Below, in pieces: positions 41,083 through 47,114 of a stretch of 64,000 bases of DNA (position 1 is the first letter of the stretch; the number at the start of each line of letters is the position of its first letter). Under the pieces are notes generated by a model. The model saw nothing but the letters and a program-made list of their open reading frames with translations. It ran no database searches and was not told where the DNA came from. The position numbers were made by a program, and so were the translations under genes. Source of the stretch: Plantibacter sp. Leaf314. Its GTDB lineage: Bacteria > Actinomycetota > Actinomycetes > Actinomycetales > Microbacteriaceae. The stretch lies in contig NZ_LMOB01000001.1 of the NCBI RefSeq assembly GCF_001423185.1, positions 310,001-374,000 of the forward strand, given 5' to 3'.

Positions 41083-43161
41083 TCAGACGTCGATGCTCTC
41101 GCGGGACAGTCGGTCGGAGCTGTCCACGATGAACTCCTTCCTCGGGGCGACGTCGTTGCCCATGAGGAGTTCGAAGATACGTCCGGCCGACTCGGCGTCC
41201 TCGACGCGCACGCGGCGGAGCGTGCGGTGGCGTCGATCCATCGTGGTCGTCGCCAACTGGTCGGCGTCCATCTCGCCGAGTCCCTTGTACCGCTGGATCG
41301 GTTCCTGATGCTTCTTGCCGGTGCGCTTGAGGTCGGCGAGCACGGCGTGCAGCTCGGCTTCGGAGTAGGTGTAGATCGTCTCGTTCGGCTTCGAACCGGG
41401 GTTGATGACGATGACCCGATGGAGCGGTGGCACCGCAGCGAAGACGCGGCCCGCCTCGATGAGCGGCCGCATGTAGCGGAAGAAGAGCGTGAGCAGGAGC
41501 GTGCGGATGTGCGCACCGTCGACGTCCGCGTCGCTCATCAGGATGATCTTCCCGTACCGGGCGGCGTCGAGGTCGAAGGATCGACCTGACCCGGCTCCGA
41601 TGACCTGGATGATGGACGCGCACTCGGCGTTCGACAGCATGTCGGAGACGGAGGCCTTCTGCACGTTCAGGATCTTGCCGCGGATCGGGAGGAGCGCCTG
41701 GTACGAGCTGTCGCGCGCCAGCTTCGCCGTCCCGAGGGCGGAGTCCCCCTCGACGATGAACAGTTCACTCGACTCGAGGTTGCCCGAGCGGCAGTCGACC
41801 AACTTGGCCGGCAGTGACGAGTTCTCGAGGGCGTTCTTCCGGCGCTGCGTCTCCTTGTGGGTCCGGGCGGAGATCCGGGACTTCATCTCGGACACGATCT
41901 TCTCGAGCACGAGCGCCGTCTGCGCCTTGTCATCCCGTTTCGTCGAAGCGAACCGCTCCTTGAGTTCCTTGGCGACGACGTTCGCCACGATGGCCCGCAC
42001 GGCAGGCGTCCCGAGGATCTCCTTCGTCTGGCCCTCGAACTGCGGCTCCGCGAGCCGGACCGTCAGCACGGCGGTCAGGCCGGCGAGGACGTCGTCCTTC
42101 TCGAGCTTGTCCGAGCCGACCTTCAGGCGGCGGGCGTTCTGCTCCACCTGGGCCCGGAGGAACTTCAGCAGCCCCTGATCGAACCCCAGCTGGTGCGTGC
42201 CGCCCTTCGGCGTGGCGATGATGTTGACGAAGCTCCGCATGACCGTCTCGTACCCGGTCCCCCAGCGAAGGGCGATGTCGACCTCCGCCTCCCGTTCCAC
42301 CTCGGTCGCGACCATGGTGCCCGACGGCGACAGGACGGGCACCGTCTCGGTGAACGTGCCGCTTCCGGTGAGACGCCAGGTGTCGGTGAGGGCGGTGTCG
42401 CCCGCCAGGTAGTCGACGAACTCCGAGATGCCGCCCTCATAGCGGTACATCGCCTCGGTCGGTTCCTCGACGGTCTCGTCGCGGATGTGGATGCCGAGCC
42501 CCTTGATGAGGAAGGCCGTCTGACGGGCTCGGCCCAACAGCTCCTCAGCCTGGAACTGTGCACCCTTCGTGAAGATCTGGCGGTCGGCCCAGTAGCGGAT
42601 CCGCGTGCCCGTCACGCCGCGCTTGGTCTTCCCGATGACCCGGAGTTCGCTCTGCTTCTCGAAGGGGGTGAACGGCGCGTCCGGCGTGGGCTCACCGGTG
42701 TCGGCGAAGATGCCGGGCTCGCCACGGTGGAAGGACATCGCGTAGGTCTTGCCACCGCGGTCCACCTCGACATCGAGCCGTTCCGAGAGCGCATTGACGA
42801 CGGAGGCGCCGACGCCGTGCAGCCCGCCCGACGCGGCGTAGGACCCACCGCCGAACTTGCCGCCGGCGTGCAGCTTCGTGAACACGACCTCGACGCCCGA
42901 CAGGCCGGTCTTCGGCTCGATGTCGACCGGGATGCCGCGCGCGTGGTCTCGGACCTCGACGCTCTGGTCGGCGTGCAGGATGATCTCGATCTCGTCGCCG
43001 TGCCCGCCGAGGGCCTCGTCGACCGAGTTGTCGATGATCTCCCAGAGGCAGTGCATGAGGCCCCGCGAGTCCGTCGATCCGATGTACATGCCGGGTCGCT
43101 TGCGCACCGCCTCGAGGCCTTCGAGGACGGAGAGATGCCGGGCGGAGTAGTCGCTGCTCAC
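41083..43161 (-). CDS. parE: DNA topoisomerase IV subunit B
   Basis: The 692-residue ATPase subunit. The GHKL site is LWEIIDNSVDEALGGHGDEI with the catalytic glutamate and DHARGIPVDIEPKTG, GGLHGVGASVVNALS the lid, and the TOPRIM acidic motifs are LFIVEGDSALGTAKLA and ILMSDADVDGAHIRT. The start is a GTG (43161), six bases after a TACTCT box and without a Shine-Dalgarno, so it is probably leaderless. It is divergent from a DUF7455 gene over 215 bases, in which nothing else codes. It is assigned to topoisomerase IV by its pairing with parC. Confidence 0.95.
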   Translation of the reverse strand: MSSDYSARHLSVLEGLEAVRKRPGMYIGSTDSRGLMHCLWEIIDNSVDEALGGHGDEIEIILHADQSVEVRDHARGIPVDIEPKTGLSGVEVVFTKLHAGGKFGGGSYAASGGLHGVGASVVNALSERLDVEVDRGGKTYAMSFHRGEPGIFADTGEPTPDAPFTPFEKQSELRVIGKTKRGVTGTRIRYWADRQIFTKGAQFQAEELLGRARQTAFLIKGLGIHIRDETVEEPTEAMYRYEGGISEFVDYLAGDTALTDTWRLTGSGTFTETVPVLSPSGTMVATEVEREAEVDIALRWGTGYETVMRSFVNIIATPKGGTHQLGFDQGLLKFLRAQVEQNARRLKVGSDKLEKDDVLAGLTAVLTVRLAEPQFEGQTKEILGTPAVRAIVANVVAKELKERFASTKRDDKAQTALVLEKIVSEMKSRISARTHKETQRRKNALENSSLPAKLVDCRSGNLESSELFIVEGDSALGTAKLARDSSYQALLPIRGKILNVQKASVSDMLSNAECASIIQVIGAGSGRSFDLDAARYGKIILMSDADVDGAHIRTLLLTLFFRYMRPLIEAGRVFAAVPPLHRVIVINPGSKPNETIYTYSEAELHAVLADLKRTGKKHQEPIQRYKGLGEMDADQLATTTMDRRHRTLRRVRVEDAESAGRIFELLMGNDVAPRKEFIVDSSDRLSRESIDV

Positions 43162-43173: not shown

Positions 43174-43339
43174 GTCTCCGCGTCCGACACGCCGATGGTG
43201 ACACTCGGCGGCGATCCCGCCATCCTGCATTCCGGCCGGCCACCCATCCGGCTGAGGGTCTGGTCCGAATGATCTACGCGCAGAGCGAAACGAACGCGCA
43301 AAGGCACACCGTTGCGGCGAACGCGTGCTTTCATGAGTA

Positions 43340-43354
43340 CTACGAGTTTCGTAG
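43340..43354. repeat. inverted repeat in the DUF7455 leader
   Basis: CTACGA (43340-43345) and TCGTAG (43349-43354) form a perfect 6-bp inverted repeat around GTT, 22 bp upstream of the DUF7455 start codon. It could be an operator or a small leader hairpin. Confidence 0.4.
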
Positions 43355-43376
43355 CCGCCCGAGTCAGGAGGAGCAC

Positions 43377-43607
43377 ATGTCACAGACTGCTACCGAGAGC
43401 ACGCCGAGTGACCTCGACGCCCAGCAACTGACTGCCGCCGATCGTTGCGATCTGTGCGGAGCACAGGCCTACATCCGCGTGCAGATGAACAGCGGTGAGC
43501 TGCTGTTCTGCGCGCACCACGGCAAGAAGTACCAGGAGAAGCTGACGCAGGTCGCGACCGACTGGCACGACGAGTCTGCGCGGCTCTTCACCGAGCAGCG
43601 CGCGTAG
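43377..43607 (+). CDS. DUF7455 small zinc-ribbon protein
   Basis: A 76-residue protein with a single zinc-ribbon-like domain: ADRCDLCGAQAYIRVQM and LLFCAHHGKKYQEKL supply a C-x2-C and a C-x2-H pair. The family is actinobacterial, found near parE and sigA, and of unknown function. AGGAGGA (43364-43370) stands 6 nt before the ATG, which makes this start certain although the frame is open 108 nt further upstream. A strong hairpin follows at once. Confidence 0.9.
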   Translation: MSQTATESTPSDLDAQQLTAADRCDLCGAQAYIRVQMNSGELLFCAHHGKKYQEKLTQVATDWHDESARLFTEQRA

Positions 43608-43665: not shown

Positions 43666-44415
43666 TCAGCCGATGGATGTGACGATCTGTGCCCGTGCCT
43701 GCTCGGCGATGTGGTCGAGCGCCCGCAGTTCCGGCGACTCGTCGAGCATCGACGTCCCACCCGCGACGGCGATGGCCTGACGGAGCAGACGGTCGGCCAG
43801 TTCGGGGTTCTTCGCCAGCACCGGTCCGTGCAGATGGGTGCCGATGAACGGACCGACCATCGCCCCCTCGGTGCCGTCTCCGTTGCCGCGGCCGTGGCGC
43901 ACCGCGCCGACCGCCTGGACGCCCGTACCGGCGCGGAAGTCCCTCGCGTGGTTCTCGTAGCCTACGAGGACGGGCGACTCCAGCTCGAGGTCGCCGGCCG
44001 GCACGACGAGCAGGTCGTCGCTGGCCCGAGCGCTGCGGAGCGGGGCGTCCCCCTCGATGATCGCGAGTCCGTCCACCCAGCTGCCCGGTGTCAGTTCGAG
44101 ACGACGGGTGAGGAGCTTCCATCCGTTCGCCACGGCGAGGACCGGCACCCCAGCCTCCACCCAGGCGATGAAGGCGTCGCGGAACGGTCGGAGCGCTTCG
44201 AGGACGACCGGGGCGGACGGGTCGTCGCAGGAGCCGAGCACGACGGCGTGGACCGCGTCGGGCAGATCGGACACCGACTCGACGGGGACCAGCTCGACGG
44301 TGAGCCCGCGAGCGCGACCGCGGCGGGCGAGGACCGATCCGTTCTCGGCGTCGCCGTTGACGTTGCAGCTCGATGGCAGCAGGACGGCGATGGTGATCGT
44401 CGGCTCGGTCGTCAT
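43666..44415 (-). CDS. GatD-like class I glutamine amidotransferase homologue lacking the catalytic cysteine
   Basis: The 249-residue product has the GatD (CobB/CobQ-type amidotransferase) fold. ITIAVLLPSSCNVNGDAENG, VVLGSCDDPSAPVV, YENHARDFRAG and FIGTHLHGPVLAKNPELAD (histidine 196) align with the GatD family. At the nucleophile elbow, where GatD reads LAVCGGYQLL, it reads LAVANGWKLL: the cysteine is alanine 96. Such a protein cannot hydrolyse glutamine by the known mechanism. In GatD-MurT, GatD supplies ammonia so that MurT can amidate the D-Glu alpha-carboxyl of lipid II. The ATG overlaps the MurT-like stop by 4 nt. It may be a structural partner of a MurT that uses another amine; this is inference. 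Confidence 0.85.
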   Translation of the reverse strand: MTTEPTITIAVLLPSSCNVNGDAENGSVLARRGRARGLTVELVPVESVSDLPDAVHAVVLGSCDDPSAPVVLEALRPFRDAFIAWVEAGVPVLAVANGWKLLTRRLELTPGSWVDGLAIIEGDAPLRSARASDDLLVVPAGDLELESPVLVGYENHARDFRAGTGVQAVGAVRHGRGNGDGTEGAMVGPFIGTHLHGPVLAKNPELADRLLRQAIAVAGGTSMLDESPELRALDHIAEQARAQIVTSIG

Positions 44416-45674
44416 GCGTCGTCCTGATCGTTCGAGGCGAGCCCGAGGTGCGCACGCGTGCGACGCATCGAGTCGGCGGTGAAGATGACGGTCTTACGGC
44501 CGACACCAGGGGCGGGGAGCGCCAGGAACGCGTCGAGGGCCGCACCGAGATCCGGCTCGATGCGATCGATCTCGACGCCGTCGTACCCGAGCTGGAGCGC
44601 CGCCTCCCAGGCCTTCGACCCGGAGACGACGGCGACACGACCGAGACGGGCCGTGTCGACCGGCCACAGGTAGGACGGGTCGCGGACGTCGCTGCCGACG
44701 GCCACCAGGATCTGTTCCGTGTCCGGGGCGAGACTGTCGATGTTCAGTTGGAAGCTCGCCGGGTTCTGGACGAGCACGAACTCCACTTCGACGCCACGCA
44801 CGGTGGTCACCTCTCCGCGGCCGAAGACCGGGGTCAGGGCCTCGAACGAGGCCGCCGCCGTCGCGAGTCGGAACTCCGGCCCGAGGACGGCCGCAGCACC
44901 GGAGATGGCTGCAGCCGCGTCGACGGCGTAGTGCACGCCGCGAGCAGGGAGACGGAACCGCGCGGTCTCGCCCTTGTGCGCGATGACCACCTCATCGCCG
45001 GCCAGCGACTGCACCACCGTGCCGGCGTCCGCGTCCACACGATCCGGAGCGGTCGAGCTGTAACCGAGACCACGTGGGCTGGCTTCCAGGACCGAGGCCG
45101 AGACGCCGTACCGCCACCGGGTCGCGGCACTGCCCGAGGCAACCGCGTCGACCAGCGCGTCGTCGCCGTTCAGCACCAGCGAACCGGTCGATCGTCCGGC
45201 GATCGCGTCGAGCATCCGGGACACCATGGCGGCATCGTGGAAGCGGTCGATCTGGTCGACGGACACGTTCGTCAGGATGACATGCGCTGGACGGAGCCGC
45301 GGGGCGATCAGGGCGCCGTGGCCCTCGTCCATCTCGAGCACGCCCAGGTCCGCGTCGATCCGACCTCGCAGGTCGGCACGTTCGAGTAATGCCGAGGTGA
45401 GGCCCTGTGAGATGTTCGCCGTGGACGGGTTCGTGAACACCGAGACCTGATGCGCGCGCAGGATACCTACGAGCATCTTGGTCGTGGTGGACTTCCCGCT
45501 CGATCCGCTCACGATGACGAGGCCACGCGGGAAGCTGTTCAGCGTGTCTGGCAGAAACCCGGGCGCGACCCGGTTGACCACGAGGCCGGGAACGGCAGAT
45601 CCCCCGCCCGGCTTACGCAGCCTGGCGAGGAATCGGACGGCTCGACCCGCGAGGATGGCGGGGGCGTAGCGCAT
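44412..45674 (-). CDS. MurT-like Mur ligase lacking the zinc ribbon
   Basis: A 420-residue Mur ligase-fold protein. The P-loop is VIVSGSSGKSTTTKML (residues about 53-68), LTNVSVDQIDRFHD is the conserved DQxDR strand (135-147), and LVQNPASFQLN (301-311) corresponds to the MurT KNPAG-N segment. GSDVRDPSYLWPVD (327-340) corresponds to the DGRDVSW-LWD segment but is altered. MurT normally inserts a four-cysteine ribbon in the central domain; this protein has no cysteine anywhere. MurT activates the alpha-carboxyl of D-Glu in lipid II with ATP. The ATG at 45674 lies 4 nt after the sigA stop, so it is probably transcribed with sigA, and it is coupled to the GatD-like gene. Confidence 0.85.
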   Translation of the reverse strand: MRYAPAILAGRAVRFLARLRKPGGGSAVPGLVVNRVAPGFLPDTLNSFPRGLVIVSGSSGKSTTTKMLVGILRAHQVSVFTNPSTANISQGLTSALLERADLRGRIDADLGVLEMDEGHGALIAPRLRPAHVILTNVSVDQIDRFHDAAMVSRMLDAIAGRSTGSLVLNGDDALVDAVASGSAATRWRYGVSASVLEASPRGLGYSSTAPDRVDADAGTVVQSLAGDEVVIAHKGETARFRLPARGVHYAVDAAAAISGAAAVLGPEFRLATAAASFEALTPVFGRGEVTTVRGVEVEFVLVQNPASFQLNIDSLAPDTEQILVAVGSDVRDPSYLWPVDTARLGRVAVVSGSKAWEAALQLGYDGVEIDRIEPDLGAALDAFLALPAPGVGRKTVIFTADSMRRTRAHLGLASNDQDDA

Positions 45675-45678
45675 GCTC

Positions 45679-46965
45679 CTACTCGAGGTAGTCGCGGAGC
45701 GACTGGGATCGGCTCGGGTGACGCAGCTTCGCCATGGTCTTCGACTCGATCTGTCGGATCCGCTCGCGCGTGACGCCGAACGTGTCACCGATCTGGTCGA
45801 GCGTCTTCGGCATGCCGTCTCCGAGGCCGAAGCGCATCCGGATGACCCCGGCTTCACGCTCGGACAGTGAATCGAGCAGCGACTCCAACTGCTTCTGCAG
45901 CATGGTGAAGCTCACCGCATCGGCGGGGACGACCGCCTCGGTGTCCTCGATCAGGTCGCCGAACTCGCTGTCGCCGTCCTCGCCCAGCGGGGTGTGCAGC
46001 GAGATGGGCTCGCGGCCGTACTTCTGGACCTCGATGACCTTCTCAGGCGTCATGTCGAGCTCACGGCTCAGTTCCTCAGGCGTGGGTTCGCGACCGAGGT
46101 CCTGGAGCATCTGGCGCTGCACGCGGGCGAGCTTGTTGATGACCTCGACCATGTGCACGGGGATGCGGATGGTCCGCGCCTGGTCGGCCATGGCTCGCGT
46201 GATGGCCTGACGGATCCACCAGGTCGCGTAGGTGGAGAACTTGAAGCCCTTCGTGTAGTCGAACTTCTCGACGGCACGGATGAGACCGAGGTTCCCCTCC
46301 TGGATGAGGTCGAGGAACTGCATGCCTCGTCCGGTGTAGCGCTTGGCGAGGCTCACGACGAGTCGGAGGTTGGCACCGAGCAGGTGGCTCTTCGCCCGGG
46401 CTCCGTCCTTCGCGACCCACTGGAGTTCTCGGCCGACCCGCGAACGCTTCTCGAGGTCGGACAGCTGCGAGAGCTTGTCCTCCGCGAAGAGTCCGGCCTC
46501 GATGCGCATGGCGAGTTCGACCTCCTCTGCTGCGTTGAGGAGGGCGACCTTACCGATCTGCTTGAGGTAGTCCTTCACCGGGTCGGCGGTCGCGCCGGTG
46601 ATCGCGGCGGAGTAGACCGGGATCTCGTCGTCGTCGCTGTTGGAGAGCACGAGTGCGTCGGTGGGGAGGGTGATCTCGGGGACGGACTTGTCGTCCTCCT
46701 CCTCGACCGTCTCCGTCGCTTCGCCGGCGGGTGCGTCGACCACGGCGTCGTCGGCGACGACCTCGACGACGACGTCCTCGTCGTCGGCAGCCTCATCGGC
46801 CTCCGAGTTCGTCTTCGGGGCGGCCTTGGCACGCGTGGCCTTCGCCTTGGGAGCGGCTTTCGTGCGCGGCGTTGCGGGCTTGGTGGTCCGAGCCTTCGCT
46901 GCGGGAGCCTCCGTGGCCTCGTCTGCCGGCGCTGCTTCGTCTGCGCGAGCGGTCTTGGTGGCCAT
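45679..46965 (-). CDS. sigA: principal RNA polymerase sigma factor SigA (HrdB-type)
   Basis: The 428-residue primary sigma-70 factor. After a long Ala/Lys-rich N-terminal tail (about 1-60) and an acidic stretch come region 1.2 ([16 protein letters not shown]), region 2 ([40 protein letters not shown]), region 3 and region 4 ([21 protein letters not shown] [19 protein letters not shown]). The ATG at 46965 follows AGGAAGG; an alternative ATG at 47031 would add 22 residues but has no Shine-Dalgarno. The gene is followed directly by the murT/gatD-like pair. It directs the TANNNT promoters noted here. Confidence 0.96.
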
Positions 46966-47114
46966 AGCTGCACCTTCCTGTTCGGACCCGGCTTCGAGAG
47001 TCAACGCCGGATCGTCCGTGATTTCGGACATTACGAGGACCCATGTCAAGTCTTGGTGCAGTGCAACCCGAAAAGGGCCGCCGACATTCCGAGAGGTGAA
47101 CGGGTCCGAGTTCC

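Follow-up and report, generated by a model that had tools for sequence, protein, structure and literature searches.

MurE and MurF combine the Mur fold and acyl-phosphate chemistry with an amino-acid amine as the nucleophile, and in Mur ligases the incoming amino acid binds to the C domain. FemXAB, MurM and other tRNA-dependent enzymes of group A walls build interpeptide bridges on the side chain of position 3 using aminoacyl-tRNA; Erysipelothrix and Eubacterium are Firmicute genera of group B, and Micrococcus luteus carries glycine on D-Glu. Lipid II isoglutaminyl synthase, the MurT/GatD complex of Staphylococcus aureus, Streptococcus pneumoniae, Streptococcus pyogenes and Mycobacterium tuberculosis, is encoded by a gene pair, with MurT made of the Mur ligase middle and C domains, and normally amidates lipid II with ammonia derived from glutamine. 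MurT is reported to resemble Mur ligases (PMC6085368), and the target described for the complex is exactly the alpha-carboxyl of D-Glu (PMC3266927). Here we analysed a stretch of 64,000 nucleotides from Plantibacter sp. Leaf314 (contig NZ_LMOB01000001.1, positions 310,001 to 374,000; hereafter the window), a member of the Microbacteriaceae, which are described as B-type (PMC10978784, PMC11206981). The window encodes a MurT/GatD-like pair without the glutaminase nucleophile. This pair is probably a repurposed lipid II amidotransferase: it would ligate the first amino acid of the cross-bridge to the D-Glu alpha-carboxyl, and GatD would serve as a scaffold. Among the papers listed from the openly licensed PubMed Central literature (CC0, CC BY or CC BY-SA), none was found that names a ligase for the group B bridge.

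In the GatD-like protein of the window (stretch VPVLAVANGWKLL; LAVANGWKLL), Ala96 aligns with the nucleophile Cys94 of S. aureus GatD, and His196 is kept in THLHGP. The MurT-like protein has the P-loop GSSGKST, contains no cysteine among its 420 residues and reads VGSDVRDPSYLWP where intact MurT reads NDxYADGRDxSWLWD, a segment longer by three residues. The two genes overlap by 4 nucleotides and the murT ATG lies 4 nucleotides past the rpoD stop codon; murT and gatD are cotranslated behind rpoD. These observations bear out what a sequence-only reading of the window had described: an alanine nucleophile beside a kept histidine, an unusual P-loop, an altered DGRDVSW segment, a cysteine-free MurT and genes that remain coupled. 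Both proteins pass the Pfam cut-offs for MurT_C, Mur_ligase_M (39.5 against 24 bits) and GATase_3, and both miss the curated NCBIfam cut-offs (MurT 90.7 against 800 bits; GatD, NF052463, 73.4 against 450 bits). Genome-wide searches gave a single match to MurT_C and a single match to P0001; no second MurT was found with either, in favour of the reading's proposal.

Comparison of the window with six genomes of the same genus gave ratios of nonsynonymous to synonymous substitution rates (dN/dS) of 0.03-0.10 for murT and 0.11-0.19 for gatD. The pair is under purifying selection, strongest on murT. The GatD of Plantibacter sp. VKM Ac-1784 (L162) is 86% identical to that of the window.

In a first look, 40 of 60 relatives matched, the GatDs of the family mostly lacking the cysteine and those of other families having it. 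We refer to pairs of the window's kind as type I; their sequences were taken from best-hit and named loci and are not a random draw. Among 101 non-redundant type I GatDs the nucleophile position holds glycine in 80, alanine in 19, serine in 2 and cysteine in none, and the catalytic histidine (S. aureus His189) is kept in 83 and lost in 18. Cysteine and histidine are both present in 17 of 17 Cys-intact comparators from the family and its order, and in 29 of 29 pairs from outside the family (8/8 and 21/21 in two sets). A mutation of a single strain or a sequencing error is ruled out, the change being family-wide, and the changes in the pair are far beyond chance because identical ones recur throughout the family. 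The dead glutaminase of the first proposal is supported by the absence of cysteine from 101/101 type I GatDs, and a retained and selected pair by the dN/dS values.

To place type I more widely, a profile from 13 type I MurTs was run over 299 Microbacteriaceae genomes and the classes by best E-value were recounted by script: 168 genomes scored below 1e-152, 54 fell in a middle class that mixes intact and divergent type I sequences, 21 lay at 1e-25 to 1e-42 and hold other MurT types (12 of them read), and 56 had no MurT. A class-wide run over 393 genomes gave matches below 1e-150 in 13, all members of the family, with 1.6e-118 as the best of the rest. Type I was seen only in the Microbacteriaceae in this class-wide sample, which speaks for the proposed tie to B-type walls at the level of the family. 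Three further observations concern individual members. The strongly reduced genome G021 (L076; 0.9 Mb) has kept murT/gatD, with serine at the GatD nucleophile position. At L072 (G272:C1:1394203-1395443) a type I murT match is split over two frames, possibly by a frameshift or a sequencing error. The position of GatD His196 is occupied by glutamine in Curtobacterium and Microbacterium, lysine in Frondihabitans and Frigoribacterium and glycine in Clavibacter and Okibacterium, and is histidine in most genera with diaminobutyrate (Dab) in the wall; a link between this residue and the bridge diamino acid is possible, as a clade-bound lead from sequence comparison.

What changed in MurT was assessed by aligning 90 type I sequences with 17 intact ones, with short and duplicate sequences dropped from the alignments. 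All 90 type I MurTs retain K61, E114, D116, D140, R144, R286 and D332, and 89 retain N304. K61 and E114 correspond to the P-loop lysine and Mg-binding glutamate of S. aureus (K59, E108), and D332 to Asp349 (numbering checked along the S. aureus chain), which in that species is described as the third residue of the GatD triad (PMC6113224). The DNAAD motif (342-346), proposed to bind the stem peptide (PMC6113224), is gone from all 90 type I sequences through a three-residue deletion and from none of the 17 intact ones. In the C domain, type I has gained conserved residues at S307 (89/90), Q309 (86/90), N311 (90/90) and D313 (83/90), where the intact MurTs have other residues, except for aspartate at 313 in two. 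Position 139 is arginine in 17/17 intact sequences and mostly valine (49/90) or isoleucine (28/90) in type I; Arg135 of S. pneumoniae, the counterpart of the lost arginine, is described as shutting the gate in a modelled loop (PMC6085368).

An AlphaFold2 model of the window MurT (mean predicted local distance difference test, pLDDT, 85.7; predicted template modelling score 0.88) was searched with Foldseek. The top PDB matches by E-value were S. aureus MurT, and several MurF structures gave TM-scores of 0.66-0.68; identity to MurF entries is 15-22%. MurT differs from MurE and MurF in having no UDP-binding N-terminal domain and in its partnership with GatD. The type I pair resembles lipid II isoglutaminyl synthase, its best PDB match by sequence and, for MurT, also by fold, in the gene pair, the domains, the GatD family, the P-loop lysine, the Mg-binding glutamate and the aspartate facing GatD. 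It departs from that enzyme in lacking the cysteine nucleophile, the DNAAD motif and the zinc ribbon, in having tyrosine and aspartate at the adenine-site asparagine pair, in its S-x-Q-x-N-x-D motif and in its place behind rpoD. One of these differences carries no weight. The Cys4 zinc ribbon is indeed absent from the window MurT, as the sequence-only reading held, but its loss was rejected as evidence of repurposing: CxxC..CxxC is also missing from 15 of the 17 Cys-intact comparators of the family and order, and the zinc finger is reported from just a subset of bacteria (PMC6113224).

The position behind rpoD is shared with other enzymes. Between rpoD and parE the slot is filled either by the dead MurT/GatD or by a CofE-like amide ligase, the latter usually with an ATP-grasp protein and often with amino-acid racemases or a diaminobutyrate transaminase; family scans of example proteins assigned them to F420_ligase, ATPgrasp_ST, Ala_racemase and EctB diaminobutyrate transaminase. 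The CofE-like gene is a divergent member of the amide-ligase family of CofE (F420-0:gamma-glutamyl ligase, PF01996; 47.9 bits against a cut-off of 25). Unlike CofE itself, it reaches 30.3 bits against the NCBIfam cut-off of 180.65 and stands beside rpoD and amino-acid genes. The slot was examined in 24 family genomes without a type I match, 19 of which were fetched as loci (L122-L140). In 18 of these 19, including L124, a CofE-like gene lies between rpoD and parE; L140 has amino-acid ATP-binding cassette (ABC) transporter genes instead. In L107, L110, L113 and L114, rpoD adjoins the DUF7455-like gene and parE, and in G072 the rpoD locus is cut at the contig end and CofE is found elsewhere in the genome. 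Simple gene loss was rejected for most genomes without type I, CofE filling the slot in 18 of the 24.

A scan of named loci, anchored on the DUF7455-like gene, gave a best 80 that are nearly all Microbacteriaceae. These comprise 52 type I loci, of which 43 have the pair alone and 9 have racemase genes as well, 19 CofE loci (ATP-grasp in 11, ATP-grasp plus racemase in 5, racemase in 3), one type II locus with ATP-grasp and 8 unassigned, 7 of them on loci shorter than 20 kb; type I and CofE were found together in none of the 80. Among the type I genera are Plantibacter, Curtobacterium, Clavibacter, Rathayibacter, Leifsonia, Agromyces, Cryobacterium, Subtercola, Herbiconiux, Frigoribacterium, Frondihabitans and Okibacterium, while Microbacterium has both type I and CofE. 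Gene context ties the repurposed MurT/GatD to construction of the cross-bridge.

Several slots have features of their own. An adjacent pair of alanine-racemase-fold genes, one for a two-domain protein and one with just the C domain recognised, recurs in the slot (L122:2127-3793, L139:6343-8051) and may encode a two-subunit diamino-acid racemase. EctB-type genes stand beside CofE-like and ATP-grasp genes at L134:245-1564 (by family scan) and L136:6105-7370 (by similarity), which suggests a local supply of Dab. In Amnibacterium flavum and Naasia (L145, L177) the slot genes and rpoD were not found near parE in the fetched stretch, the locus being rearranged or cut at the contig end. At L246 (G168) a gap of 1.6 kb between rpoD and parE contains a short type II MurT-like match.

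The two ligases also exclude each other genome-wide. A CofE profile run over the 299 family genomes gave strong matches in 46, all of them among the 56 without MurT, and CofE or some MurT, counting intact MurTs and every other type, is present in 289 of the 299. Weaker CofE matches occur in three genomes, two with type III MurT (G080, G142) and one with a strong-class MurT (G164); at L257 (G080) the divergent CofE-like match lies directly upstream of a type III murT/gatD. ATP-grasp is strong in 49 of the 299 genomes: 41 of the 46 with CofE, six of the type II class (G061, G138 and G146, which were read, and G128, G188 and G192, assigned by score and genus), G024, which is type I as read, and G230, which is middle class by score. 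From this exclusion and distribution it follows that MurT and CofE are mutually exclusive in the sample, whereas ATP-grasp is optional. At least 12 exchanges between type I and CofE are needed on a ParE tree (87 scored tips). This is a single-gene tree of 114 tips, drawn from 128 loci after removal of 10 in which ParE was not readable and of four that were short, and it includes four duplicate genomes (L125/L196, L127/L197, L129/L201, L138/L178).

The glutaminase was lost more than once. MurTs of types II, III and IV form a clade apart from type I (support 0.996 and 0.879), and the type II GatD has lost both cysteine and histidine (FTHNA, SLIGP) while occupying the same slot position (L141, L174). 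Since this separate clade also has a dead GatD, the loss occurred at least twice in one family. Both residues are gone from the GatDs of L081, L085 and L174 (type II), L089-L090 (type III) and L091 (type IV), and type II MurT retains the zinc ribbon and the adenine-site asparagine pair. Nine family genomes are Cys-intact by sequence (G009, G020, G022, G030, G075, G095, G112 and the zinc-type G086 and G107). In these the pair lies elsewhere, and the slot is cassette-free in 9/9. On the ParE tree G009, G020, G030, G075 and G112 are among deep branches, G095 groups with an outgroup, G022 with Amnibacterium, and an unsupported pairing places G086 and G107 together near Rathayibacter.

Plantibacter presumably has Dab as its wall diamino acid, and eight type I genera with a published wall type have Dab, ornithine (Orn) or D-Lys. 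Glaciihabitans and Cryobacterium are reported with Dab, Frigoribacterium with D-Lys and Frondihabitans with Orn (PMC7033078); Subtercola with Dab, B2gamma (PMC5945732); Herbiconiux with D- and L-Dab, B2gamma (PMC10011130); Clavibacter with Dab (PMC9190974); and Agromyces as B2gamma, written 'D-Glu-L-Dab' (PMC5217419). Salinibacterium, a CofE genus, is given as Lys, Orn (PMC7033078), and in Microbacterium D-Orn, L-Lys and Dab all occur (PMC10757982). A link with glycine (B1) walls was dropped, because the type I genera covered by the literature have Dab, Orn or D-Lys.

These results support a model in which MurT would bind a nucleotide and activate the alpha-carboxyl of D-Glu, or of 3-hydroxy-Glu, at stem position 2. 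We infer that an amino acid takes the place of ammonia, the attacking amine being the amino group of the first bridge residue. This residue would most likely be a diamino acid (Dab for Plantibacter and genera like it, Orn or D-Lys elsewhere), seated in a remodelled pocket of the C domain with S307-Q309-N311-D313 as its signature. As with FemXAB and MurM the product would be an interpeptide bridge; unlike theirs, the target would be the D-Glu alpha-carboxyl. GatD would have given up ammonia production and been kept as an obligatory structural subunit. S. aureus GatD C94G together with MurT is reported to show NH3-dependent activity at pH 8.5 and MurT alone to be inactive (PMC3266927), and therefore a dead GatD can still be required. 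CofE-like F420_ligase proteins and type II MurT/GatD may be alternative first ligases at the same slot, and the ATP-grasp protein an optional further ligase for longer bridges. The sequence-only reading had proposed repurposing for the group B bridge. The dead glutaminase, the retained pair and a slot common to amide ligases, racemases and a diaminobutyrate transaminase speak for it; its zinc-ribbon argument does not. Its choice of amino acids can be narrowed to the diamino acids, with Dab, Orn or Lys depending on the genus, and CofE can be added as a candidate alternative first ligase. For a broader model the chances appear about even: three unrelated or separately derived ligases, type I and type II MurT with dead GatDs and the CofE-like protein, would interchange behind rpoD for the first committed step of group B bridges, each fitted to the amino acid supplied by neighbouring racemase or transaminase genes.

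The complex could instead still amidate D-Glu with free ammonia, as S. aureus MurT does with GatD C94G at alkaline pH. That variant matches the commonest natural substitution (80/101), its activity in vitro is on record (PMC3266927), and the MurT aspartate facing GatD is kept in 90/90. The same study reports no ammonia use by the S. aureus complex at pH 7.5, the use of ammonia would not obviously call for the loss of DNAAD and the gain of S-x-Q-x-N-x-D, CofE, ATP-grasp, racemase and EctB genes take turns with the pair at the slot, and amidation would block a group B bridge; we consider ammonia use unlikely. Type I MurT might also be a wall amino-acid ligase that acts at another step, on the second residue or another carboxyl, leaving the D-Glu alpha-linkage to a different enzyme. 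Exclusion of CofE and co-location with racemases indicate a common pathway rather than the exact step, and the ten genomes with neither enzyme are gaps. Yet known MurT/GatD acts on precisely this carboxyl (PMC3266927), and MurT of any type or CofE is present in 289/299 genomes against strong ATP-grasp in just 49, so that a different step has a limited chance of being correct.

Given that the cysteine, in 18/101 the histidine, the DNAAD motif and both adenine-site asparagines are altered, the pair could be a catalytically dead relic, or serve purely in regulation or as a scaffold. Against this stand purifying selection, which is strongest on murT, the P-loop lysine and Mg-binding glutamate in 90/90, the new clade-specific conserved residues and a confident Mur ligase model (mean pLDDT 85.7), making a relic quite improbable. 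The genes could in principle share the slot because the site behind rpoD tolerates insertions and not because they serve one pathway, and other genes do occur there, namely the amino-acid ABC transporter of L140 and a 276-residue unlabelled open reading frame at L168. We give this very little credence: the exclusion is genome-wide (46/46) and reaches beyond the slot, the recurrent slot genes are amide ligases, amino-acid racemases or a transaminase, and a scan of 22 rpoD loci of other families showed no cassette gene within 1.5 kb of rpoD.

Some observations sit less easily with bridge ligation by MurT. The adenine-site pair is changed, Asn264 to Tyr249 (tyrosine in 82/90 type I) and Asn267 to Asp252 (aspartate in 87/90), in S. 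aureus numbering (264/267 correspond to 270/273 in S. pneumoniae). The S. aureus enzyme is inactive with N267Y, a different mutation from the natural one, which puts aspartate at this position. The first of these asparagines is also missing from some intact MurTs of another family. Judged from these residues, nucleotide use by type I MurT is uncertain. The D-configuration of the bridge residue is not established, because Agromyces is given as D-Glu-L-Dab and racemase genes are absent from the slot of the window genome, whose one alanine-racemase match lies elsewhere. Ten of the 299 genomes, from four genera, have neither MurT nor strong CofE, and other routes must exist if these are group B. 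In G164 a weaker CofE match (3.4e-38) accompanies type I, and the correlation weakens if the nine Cys-intact genomes are group B with amidated D-Glu.

The features of the locus are collected in Table 1. The small Cys-rich protein that bounds the slot downstream is one which we take to be DUF7455-like.

Table 1. Features of the rpoD-parE locus in the Plantibacter window (positions are those of the window)
Feature	Position	Strand	Remarks
GatD-like pseudo-glutaminase, type I	43666-44415	-	249 aa; Ala96 for Cys, His196 kept
MurT-like Mur-ligase-fold protein, type I	44412-45674	-	420 aa
rpoD/sigA, upstream boundary of the slot	45679-47049	-	stop codon 4 nt before murT start
Open reading frame for small Cys-rich protein, downstream boundary of the slot	43269-43607	+	
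parE/gyrB-type topoisomerase subunit, locus anchor	41083-43161	-	name from sequence alone

Group B walls are a long-standing taxonomic marker. If the proposed role is correct, one small locus would help to predict the bridge type from a genome sequence, and candidate enzymes for ligation at the D-Glu alpha-carboxyl would be at hand. It would also mean that a glutamine amidotransferase has reverted to amino-acid ligation, its glutaminase becoming a scaffold, at least twice.

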